This document shows positions 1-43,890 of a DNA stretch of 64,000 nucleotides, one piece after another. The position numbers and the translations under genes are program-made. The stretch spans positions 1,984,001 through 2,048,000 of the forward strand of contig NZ_CP050975.2 of assembly GCF_012273515.2 (NCBI RefSeq), written 5' to 3'. A model generated the notes under the pieces. The model searched no databases. It had not been told where the DNA came from and saw only the letters and a program-made list of their open reading frames with translations. Numbering within the stretch: the first letter of the stretch is position 1; each line of letters begins with the position of its first letter. The DNA is from Streptomyces sp. RPA4-2. Lineage in GTDB: Bacteria; Actinomycetota; Actinomycetes; Streptomycetales; Streptomycetaceae.

Positions 1-643
1 CGCAGACGGTCTTGACGACGTCCATCTCGTGGGTGATGAGCAGGACGGTGAGACCCAGTTGCCGGTTCAGGTCACGGATCAGCTGGAGGATGGAGCGGGT
101 GGTCTCGGGGTCGAGGGCGCTGGTGGCCTCGTCGGAGAGCAGCACCTTGGGGTCGCCGGCCAGGGCACGGGCGATGCCGACGCGCTGCTTCTGGCCGCCG
201 GAGAGCTGTGCGGGGTAGGCCTTCGCCTTGTCGGACAGGCCGACCAGGTCGAGCAGACCGAGCGCCTTGGTGGAACGCTCCTTCCCCGAGATGCCGAGGA
301 TCTCGAGCGGCAGCTCGACGTTCTCCTGCACGGTGCGCGAGGACAGCAGGTTGAAGTGCTGGAAGACCATGCCGATACGGCTGCGCGCCTGGCGGAGCTC
401 CTTGCCGGCGCGCGGTCCGCGTCCGGCGAGGGCGGTGAGGTCCTGTCCGGCGACGGTGACCGTGCCGGCGGTAGGACGCTCCAGGAGGTTGACGCAGCGG
501 ATGAGCGAGGACTTGCCGGCGCCGGACTGGCCGATGACGCCGTACACCTCGCCTTCGCGGACATGCAGATCGACGCCGTCGAGGGCGGTCACTTCACGGC
601 CGCGCGAGCGGTAGACCTTGCTGAGGCCCGTTGTCGTGATCAC
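1..643 (-). CDS. metN: MetN-like methionine importer ATPase, 3' end cut by window edge
   Basis: ATP-binding subunit of a methionine-type ABC importer (MetNIQ family), working on the cytoplasmic face of the permease. Seen in order: Walker [11 protein letters not shown]-loop VFQHFN, signature LSGGQKQR, Walker [11 protein letters not shown]-loop SALD and H-loop ITHEMDVV. The C-terminal ACT-like sensor domain of this family, the permease and the binding protein would lie beyond the window edge. The GTG at 643 is chosen because GGAA lies about 7 bases upstream and the protein then begins [11 protein letters not shown]; a GTG at 658 is in frame but has no visible ribosome site. A Cys/Met-rich leader uORF lies about 220 bases upstream. 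Polar amino acid ATPases are close relatives, so the substrate rests on family resemblance and remembered gene order. Confidence 0.85.
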
Positions 644-860
644 TGGGGATTCCGTCACTGTCGAGTGCGGGGCGTGGGTGTGCGCCGGCACGGGTGCATT
701 CGGTCTTGAACGCGGCACGGTTCTCGCGATGGCGATGGAACCGGAGGGAACCGGGAGGAGAACGTGTGCGCGGGGCAGCCCCTGTCACGTACGCGGTACG
801 GACTCAGGGCGCGGCGGTCCCGCTTCGGGGCGCGGGATCAGGCGGTGGTGCGGGGGCCCT

Positions 861-947
861 CTAGAAGGCGCACATTCGACACATACAACGAGCACCGGGC
901 GTCATGGTCGCCTCGGTCGCAAGGGTGCGGCTGCTCGTCGTGGTCAT
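861..947 (-). promoter_or_regulatory. Putative Cys/Met leader peptide (uORF) in the metN 5' region
   Basis: A 28-codon reading frame opens at ATG 947 and ends at TAG 861; its last eight residues are CMCRMCAF. A shorter version starts at ATG 884 (MCRMCAF). Three Cys and two Met codons sit within the last eight sense codons, just before the stop. TTTACT lies 6-8 bases upstream of the first ATG, compatible with a -10 element giving a leaderless message. After the stop, short hairpins can form (for example TCCCGC/GCGGGA at 818-837) before metN at 643. Leader peptides rich in the regulated amino acid are an established attenuation device, and Cys-rich ones are known in actinobacteria. Assigning one here is inference. 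The rest of the 644-1020 gap shows no S-box or other riboswitch I can recognise. Confidence 0.4.
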
Positions 948-1020
948 GGAGTGAAGTAAAGCAGACGGAGTGGCTCGGCCCGGAACCGCTGTCCGCATCG
1001 TGGACAGCGGTGGACACTTC

Positions 1021-1668
1021 TCAGCCGCGGACGGAGATCTCCACTCCCCCGTCCGTGACCAGCGCGGACAGGGCCGAGAGGTCCTTCACCACCAGGTCCG
1101 CGACCAGCTCGGAGGCCGCGTGGGTTGTGGCCAACGCCACGGTGGTCATGCCGGCGGCGCGGCCCGCCTGGAGGCCGGCCGGGGCGTCCTCGAAGACGAC
1201 ACAGCGGGCCGGGTCGACTCCCAGCTCACGGGCGGCGAGGAGGTAGGGCTCGGGGTCGGGCTTGCCGCGGGTGACGTCGTCGGCGGAGACCAGGGTCTTG
1301 GGCCGGATGCCGACCTCGTCGAGCCGGGCCTCGGCCAGCCGCCGGGTGGCGGAGGTGACGACGGCCCAGCGCTCGGCGGGCAGCGAGCCGAGGAAGGCGG
1401 CGGTTCCGGGCAGCAGCAGGACGCCGCCAGGAACGTCCTCGACCTCCAGCTGCTCGATGCGCGCGAGGGCCTCGGGGACGATGTGGGCGGGCAGCAGGTC
1501 GGCGGCTATCTCGACGGCGGGGCGGCCATGCAGTTCGATCCGGGCGAAGTCGTCGGCGGTGATCCCGTACTCCCGCGCCCAGCGGGTCCAGCAGCGGTTC
1601 ACCGACTCCAGGGACGAGACGAGGGTTCCGTCGTTGTCGAACAGCAGGGCGTCAGCGTGGATCTTCAT
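1021..1668 (-). CDS. HAD-superfamily sugar-phosphatase-like hydrolase
   Basis: 215-residue cytoplasmic haloacid dehalogenase of subfamily IA, similar to sugar-phosphatase and beta-phosphoglucomutase-like enzymes. Motif I is LLFDNDGTLV (nucleophile Asp11, acid/base Asp13), with a four-helix cap next (the GITADDFARIELHGRPAVEIAADLL region). Motif II is in VVTSATRR, motif III lysine in TRGKPDPEPY, and motif IV is VVFEDAPAG. Length and motif spacing are normal and all catalytic residues are present, so it should be an active phosphatase; the substrate cannot be read from sequence. ATG 1668 follows GGGGAC. The gene stands alone, ending about 360 bases from the metN leader and divergent from the membrane gene at 1737. 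Confidence 0.85.
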   Translation of the reverse strand: MKIHADALLFDNDGTLVSSLESVNRCWTRWAREYGITADDFARIELHGRPAVEIAADLLPAHIVPEALARIEQLEVEDVPGGVLLLPGTAAFLGSLPAERWAVVTSATRRLAEARLDEVGIRPKTLVSADDVTRGKPDPEPYLLAARELGVDPARCVVFEDAPAGLQAGRAAGMTTVALATTHAASELVADLVVKDLSALSALVTDGGVEISVRG

Positions 1669-43510: not shown

Positions 43511-43596
43511 GGATCCTCCTCGGTAGCACCACACGGCGGTCTGGCGGACAGCCGCGTATGTCTCTGATGACAATGGACCAACCACCGCGGCACATG

Positions 43597-43627
43597 AAAA
43601 ATGCCCCGGACGGGACACAGGCGGGGC
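43597..43627 (-). terminator. Intrinsic terminator / attenuator in the infC leader
   Basis: On the minus strand, GCCCCG, a 13-base loop and CGGGGC are followed directly by ATTTTTC, a true G/C stem plus U-tract, rare in this window. It lies about 85-115 bases upstream of the infC start and downstream of the promoter region. Also in the 43511-43890 gap: GGTTAGC (43814) and GCTAACC (43838) form a seven-base inverted repeat with a 17-base spacer, close to where the infC and DUF1844 promoters must be. Confidence 0.6.
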
Positions 43628-43890
43628 TCCATGAGTTACCGGAGCACCGCCGCGGTCAACCGCGGGGCGCACTTTCGGACGACTCCACCGTCCGTACGGA
43701 ACGGTGGTGGCCGTCTGACCGGGTGACCTGCCGTCCCGGAGGACAGTCAGGTGGGAGATCGGAGCCTCCACTTGTGGGCCGAGCACATACATGTCCGGCC
43801 GGTCGTTACACAAGGTTAGCAGCTTGGGCCGATATCGGCTAACCGAGGCCAACTGGGGCCGGGAACCGCGCGGGACCTATCGTGTGGGGC

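Follow-up and report, generated by a model that had tools for sequence, protein, structure and literature searches.

A conserved leader ORF and RNA core upstream of metN in Streptomyces as a candidate cysteine-responsive attenuator

The short leader ORF that precedes metNIQ, already described as a leader peptide in one species, is part of a conserved composite element in Streptomyces, in which one RNA hairpin lies over the ORF and another follows its stop codon, with parts of this structure covarying. We read this element, with some confidence, as a cysteine-responsive, ribosome-mediated attenuator of metNIQ that works without an intrinsic terminator and perhaps depends on Rho; the sensed amino acid, the switch and the part of Rho are what we infer. 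We favor this reading because the reading frame is kept across leaders of different length, Cys codons are enriched in frame, base-pair counts exceed those of controls, the core recurs in two families, the spacers before metN hold more C than G, and a U-tract terminator is absent. It is further supported by the induction of metNIQ together with sulfate-to-cysteine genes and by the leaderless polycysteine precedents in mycobacteria.

Results

The leader ORF and its operon

The window, i.e., the whole analysed stretch of 64,000 nucleotides, comes from a genome assembled as a single contig of 9.86 Mb, and its features around metN are collected in Table 1. A sequence-only reading of this DNA had proposed a Cys/Met-rich leader peptide about 220 bases before metN, with TTTACT a few bases upstream of its ATG. 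Translation confirmed the 28-codon minus-strand frame (947-861) and its Cys/Met-rich end. Between its stop and the GTG start of metN at 643 lie 217 bases, and the box was found at 960-955, separated from the ATG by seven bases. Taken purely as an open frame, the ORF would extend as far upstream as 998 (45 aa), but we prefer the 28-codon form because its ATG is conserved and a leaderless start is reported for S. lividans. Among the 289 short ORFs of the window (10-60 aa, six frames), the leader alone has at least three Cys and at least five Cys or Met in its last eight codons. Five Cys or Met in eight codons would arise with a probability of about 2e-7 at the codon usage of 39 long ORFs in the window, which bears out the claim that the cluster is far from chance.

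The product of metN is a NIL-domain ABC ATPase whose five best named matches are all from Streptomyces (78-94% identity), and the next genes encode an inner-membrane transport component and a lipoprotein of the NlpA type. A search for second leader copies elsewhere in the genome gave none above chance level. Directly upstream of the leader, in the same direction, lies a gene that reads as HAD-phosphatase-like (1021-1668, minus strand). Elsewhere in the window, positions 43596-43807 (minus strand) match Rfam Scr1601, a Streptomyces small RNA.

Table 1. Features of the metN leader region (window coordinates)
Feature	Position	Strand	Basis or remark
Inverted repeat CTGTCCACGATGCGGACAG ahead of the leader promoter, candidate NdgR-like operator	989..1007	minus	Motif fit
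TTTACT, presumed -10 box	955..960	minus	7 nt before ATG; exact in 140/146 leaders
Leader ORF (homolog of S. lividans metL)	861..947	minus	28 codons and TAG; peptide MTTTSSRTLATEATMTPGARCMCRMCAF
P0/P1 three-way-junction hairpin, from start-codon G to C of CGA	878..945	minus	Fold z -2.9; pair counts
CGA-ATG (Arg-Met)	873..878	minus	Near-invariant nucleotides; CGAATG exact in 144/146
GGGC directly past the stop, possible pseudoknot strand S1a	856..859	minus	Conserved in the window's family; part of the search pattern in the second family
P2 hairpin CCCGC-GCCCCGAA-GCGGG	819..836	minus	Compensatory pairs
Spacer, C over G, sequence-variable, candidate Rho loading region	673..818	minus	43% C, 27% G
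5' part of metN (beyond the window edge), then metI and metQ	1..643	minus	Homology

Conservation in the window's family

Of 295 Streptomyces genomes, 286 hold a match to the DNA of 960-780 (the other 9 give no match), as do 113 of 200 genomes sampled from the family, in 13 of 17 genera, the weakest of these matches covering short pieces only. Of 151 loci fetched family-wide, five (L195, L233, L238, L240, and L241) were set aside because metN was absent from the stretch. The 146 loci kept for this family (f1) comprise 141, the window's included, and five from named Streptomyces. All 146 carry a homologous leader uORF of 26-37 codons before metN. Poor conservation of the uORF among relatives, which would speak against a functional leader, was checked for and conservation was instead found to be wide; the leader peptide can be taken as real and conserved.

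The distance from the ATG to CGAATG (rarely CGCATG) takes 11 values between 66 and 96, multiples of three in 145/145 leaders, one of the 146 having no CGA/CGC-ATG motif. From this motif to the stop it is 15 in 131 leaders and 12 in 14, and beyond the stop distances vary freely. That the frame is kept over 11 lengths speaks strongly, if indirectly, for translation of the leader ORF. Some of the length variants gain Cys, Arg or Met codons.

Conservation is strongest at the nucleotide level near the stop (CGA, GGGCCC, and P2). The Arg five codons before the stop is CGA in 130/131 leaders, while CGA accounts for 5.9% of Arg codons in the window ORFs; GCCCCGAA is exact in 134/146 leaders, and GAGGG[C/T]C follows the stop in 136/146 (130 with C and 6 with T). 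The C-terminal RMC of the peptide is likewise conserved. Part of the post-stop motif is missing from 12/146 leaders, and L213, L220, L227, and L229 have a remodeled GAGGGCCC/P2 motif after the stop or have lost it (TGACCTGAGGCCC...), a natural test of whether it is needed.

Promoter and candidate operator

The -10-like box stands 6-7 bases before the ATG and reads TTTACT in 140, TTAACT in 5 and TTCACT in 1 of the 146 leaders, counts that are partly a matter of construction because the leaders were sought with a list of TTTACT-like boxes. TTTACT departs from the usual TAnnnT; a consensus promoter scan at the window leader found nothing, and a canonical TAnnnT box 4-8 nt before the leader ATG, considered and rejected, occurs at the ATG in 8/146 loci only. 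The leaderless start is mapped in S. lividans alone, the other leaders having the box at 6-7 nt.

The inverted repeat upstream of this promoter stops 41 bases short of the leader ATG and fits 14 of the 15 positions of the ChIP-seq motif printed for NdgR, an IclR-type regulator (PMC4340878), the main text of which does not name SCO1557-1559. YGTCC-N3-9-GGACR is found in 109/146 promoters and in 0.7% of shuffles, ending 40-43 bases upstream of the ATG in 91, 50-52 in 17 and 30 in 1, which places the two main positions about one helical turn (roughly ten bases) apart. On the two strands of the genome together, a looser form of the palindrome has 41 occurrences (11 for the reversed control), of which only the one at metN is free of mismatches.

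Structure of the leader RNA

The P0/P1/P2 model was first drawn by eye; the single-sequence fold was in agreement with it, and its pairs were then counted. The first 132 nt of the window leader fold at -51.5 kcal/mol (z -2.9; 0/200 shuffles as low) into P2 and a three-way-junction hairpin that spans bases 3-70, and the whole 328-nt leader has an ordinary energy (z -1.2). Alignment A1 holds 60 of 75 nonredundant leaders: ten whose P2 was absent or unusual were left out, nine of them by manual choice (L194 among them does have P2), and a further five were removed manually to keep the list short. In A1, 87.3% of cells pair, compared with 27-44% in slid versions; two-sided changes affect 13 pairs (7.5 when shuffled, 0/500; slid versions 5-12) and 47 cells (17.5 when shuffled; slid versions 9-25), all counts that favor the structure, P2 included, because these sequences also served to draw the model and leaders without P2 were omitted. 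The number of pair types in A1 (33) does not exceed that of shuffles, 80/500 of which reach it. RNAalifold returned no structure on the 75 sequences and, on A1, nothing but P2.

The base helix P0 covaries in the second family (f17) described below, where bases 3-5 pair with the three bases before GAAUG in 91/96 cells (shuffled mean 79.6; 0/1000 as high as 91) in GAC/GUC and GCC/GGC forms; in the window's family P0 gives no covariation signal (401/432 cells, shuffled mean 401.4). P2 occurs as CUCGC/GCGAG, CCCGC/GCGGG (the window's form) and CUCAC/GUGAG. GGGC or GGGU after the stop possibly pairs with GCCC of the P2 loop as an H-type pseudoknot. In the window's family its fourth base is only C (130) or T (6), both pairable with G, a pattern that hints weakly at this pairing; the pseudoknot was scored by pattern and relies on near-constant bases rather than covariation, and its columns were not judged in A1 because the linker is misaligned between UGA and UAG leaders.

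The sequence-only reading had also proposed that translation of the leader switches small hairpins downstream and so controls methionine uptake. A conserved RNA structure does lie over and downstream of the ORF, but a terminator does not accompany it, as no intrinsic terminator with a U-tract occurs in 600-1060. Among the leaders no conserved alternative pairing to P1/P2 could be established; one seen by eye, between the 5' strands of P1b and P2 (CGAGGC/GCCUCG), is impossible in several leaders and was rejected. No NCBIfam family, the Cys-rich leader and cis_reg_atten entries included, matches the window leader or one leader of the second family, and Rfam 15, with its models of SAM and other riboswitches, gives no gathering-level match in the leader.

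A second family of metN leaders

A covariance model built from the 60 leaders was run over 296 genomes of the class and matched 30, namely 28 Streptomyces and two others (G566 and G695). The match in G566 (L271) was dropped, having no leader by eye and no metN by tblastn, and that in G695, a member of f17, is genuine. A core pattern with a UGA stop, which UAG leaders such as the window's escape, matched 23 of 394 class genomes (20 Streptomyces and 3 of f17), with no match in the reversed control. Within the order of G695, the CGAAUG/stop/GGGCCC core is present in 34/249 genomes and in none of the other 215/249, and again not in the reversed control.

Of these 34 loci, 32 were read (G843 and G1000 were left out), and in 32/32 metN follows 191-557 bases downstream in the same direction. 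A leader ORF with a TTTACT-like box, itself a search criterion, is likewise present in 32/32. The N-terminal part of the peptide is unlike that of Streptomyces, and most peptides end in CRRMCDR, CCRMCDR or similar. That both families share CGAATG and GGGCCC follows from the construction of the search; that they share the P2 hairpin does not. In one locus (L313) the leader is the ten-codon MMCVPRMCAR, which has no long hairpin and keeps the Cys codons, CGAATG and the post-stop structure; with only ten codons in this leader, the long hairpin seems to be dispensable there.

Codon content

Over the ten codons that precede CGA, Cys amounts to 18% of in-frame codons in the window's family and 21% in the second, compared with 10/10% and 10/2%, respectively, in the other two frames. 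The last Cys is replaced by Arg or His in 15/145 leaders, and 6/146 leaders of the window's family have a single Cys within the last 11 codons. Judged from the sequences, Cys is probably the signal read by the leader, as it fits better than Met. Sensing of sulfur amino acids fits both this codon content and the published co-induction of metNIQ with cysteine genes: in an RNA-seq study of S. coelicolor under oxidative stress, metN rose 5.2-fold, metI 3.5-fold and metQ 2.3-fold alongside sulfate-to-cysteine genes (PMC4991794).

The spacer before metN

The stretch between P2 and metN varies in sequence and length; measured from P2 to 30 nt before metN, it spans 71 to 294 nt in the window's family. 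C exceeds G in 146/146 of these spacers (mean 47% C vs. 29% G) and in 32/32 of the second family, or 178/178 in total, compared with 9/16 other upstream regions of the window (37% C, 35% G), a small control that relies on simple gene calls. A C-rich, G-poor stretch has the look of a Rho loading region, and from its composition the spacer is a candidate for one.

Discussion

Proposed mechanism

In the attenuator that we favor, transcription would start at the A of the leader ATG, as reported for S. lividans and supposed here, and a ribosome would begin on the very 5' end. The RNA would fold into the P0/P1 hairpin over the ORF and into P2, perhaps with a pseudoknot to GGGC, directly after the stop. 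When Cys-tRNA is short, the ribosome would stall at the Cys codons around CGA-AUG-UGY, P1 would be held open and the post-stop structure would form; when Cys is plentiful, the ribosome would reach the stop, cover the abutting strand and leave, and P1 would re-form. The readout would most likely lie in the C-rich spacer, where Rho would or would not terminate transcription. Cysteine shortage would thereby let the stalled ribosome permit metNIQ expression and raise methionine uptake, methionine being a sulfur source by reverse transsulfuration. The leading edge of a ribosome lies about 16 bases ahead; with the AUG of CGA-AUG-UGY in the P site it would be at the stop, and with the stop in the A site the GGGC strand would be covered. 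The near-fixed spacing from the stalling codons to the post-stop structure fits such a ribosome-position switch.

A bolder version, which we think unlikely as a whole, gives the decision to a ribosome-gated pseudoknot: the stop-abutting GGGY and GCCC of the P2 loop, stacked coaxially with P2, would decide, in place of an intrinsic terminator, whether RNA polymerase or Rho passes, in a metN-specific attenuator family of at least two actinobacterial families with the start codon inside the first helix. A ribosome awaiting Cys-tRNA at UGY would halt just short of this pseudoknot, and one at the stop would cover it.

Alternative explanations

The leader might instead act on translation, pairing with the metN ribosome binding site until a stalled ribosome frees it. 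CUCGACA, which can pair with UGUCGAAUG, stands just before metN in 98/146 loci of the window's family, where leader/binding-site duplexes are also stronger than with shuffled sites (-19.4 vs. -15.5). However, own pairs there are no better than permuted ones (-19.4 vs. -19.5; 1528/2000 permutations as low), the same motif precedes metN in 0/32 loci of the second family, and the spacer to be bridged ranges so widely in length. A translational readout keeps a place, though a rather improbable one, because own pairs do beat permuted pairs in the second family (-20.7 vs. -19.7; 15/2000 as low), a difference inflated by species kinship. What is sensed could also be methionine, or Met and Cys together, as the name metL implies. 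By homology the operon encodes a methionine importer, the Met of CGA-AUG is near-invariant and the most constant residue of the peptide, and Met accounts for 13% (f1) and 10% (f17) of the ten codons before CGA. Yet this Met lies within the nucleotide-conserved CGAAUG, and its constancy may reflect a requirement of the RNA itself rather than sensing; the other Met codons come and go, while every leader of the second family (32/32) holds at least two Cys. We consider sensing of methionine doubtful.

A metabolite-binding riboswitch that overlaps a translated ORF by chance would agree with the compact conserved fold, the possible pseudoknot and base conservation beyond coding need. A riboswitch needs neither a kept frame nor enriched Cys codons, and a search of Rfam up to E 10 gave just two chance-level matches, both to the opposite strand, which makes this explanation very improbable. 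Hardly credible, finally, is a translated small peptide acting in its own right: the conserved C-terminal RMC would suit it, but the N-terminal part differs between the two families, and the strongest conservation tracks nucleotides (CGA, GGGCCC, and P2) rather than residues.

Several attenuator-like leaders of high-GC actinobacteria have no U-tract terminator, and how they switch is at issue. The cysteine-responsive attenuator proposed here has a sharply conserved core at near-fixed spacing from its stalling codons, as well as natural variants (a ten-codon leader and leaders without the post-stop structure), which makes the question of switching directly testable. If the reading is true, methionine uptake in Streptomyces would be under cysteine control, with a bearing on sulfur supply and thiol stress.

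Comparison with known systems

Attenuation of the TnaC/Rho type lets the position of a ribosome at the leader stop gate downstream termination. The likeness of the metN leader to it would lie in this gating, and the evidence gathered here extends neither to action as an arrest peptide nor to Rho. A 2005 survey predicted Cys leader peptides before cys operons of other Actinobacteria, which, like the window's, are short, carry runs of Cys close to the stop and lack an obvious terminator, and it suggested Rho; in contrast to the present case, its account of methionine operons reports no conserved structure upstream of them (PMC1262725). A sulfur-gene leader of a different family occurs in the same genome, where the short ORF MSGTGIALVSRRHVDLGRMSSAICPVS lies upstream of a sulfite-reductase-like gene (cysI) adjoining cysH and matches NCBIfam NF042934, a putative leader peptide, above cut-off (L357, about 2965-2882, minus strand, genome 6929500-6935500); a leader with at least three Cys was not found before this cysI.

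Leaderless polycysteine ORFs act as attenuators in mycobacteria (Canestrari 2020, as cited in PMC13236596 and PMC9094748), and the window leader resembles them in its Cys codons near the stop, in the sulfur genes downstream and, presumably, in a leaderless start. It differs from them in having no match to the NCBIfam Cys-rich leader families, and in every locus read its RNA core precedes metN. Masking of the ribosome binding site is reported for the mycobacterial systems; here the window's family has a conserved complementarity with no species-specific fit, and the second family has some species-specific fit.

The closest counterpart is metL (SLIV_29928) of S. lividans TK24, published in a 2021 reannotation, which encodes MSTTSDRTPATEATTTPGARCMCRRMCAF, is leaderless and lies upstream of metNIQ (PMC8079986). 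It is listed there as an attenuator with several hairpins and no typical terminator, its termination is called unclear, and stress is put on Met and Thr. Position and homologous peptide are shared with the window leader, and so, presumably, is the leaderless start. The metL record consists of one table row and a paragraph for one strain (PMC8079986); further descriptions of a metN leader were not found by title or abstract start, and the main texts of four transcript-mapping papers do not name metN. The 96 novel premature transcription units listed for S. clavuligerus may include the metN leader (PMC8269248). The composite element is thus a variant of leader-peptide attenuation, and what is new beyond the metL record is its wide conservation, the RNA fold, the second family and the reading of Cys.
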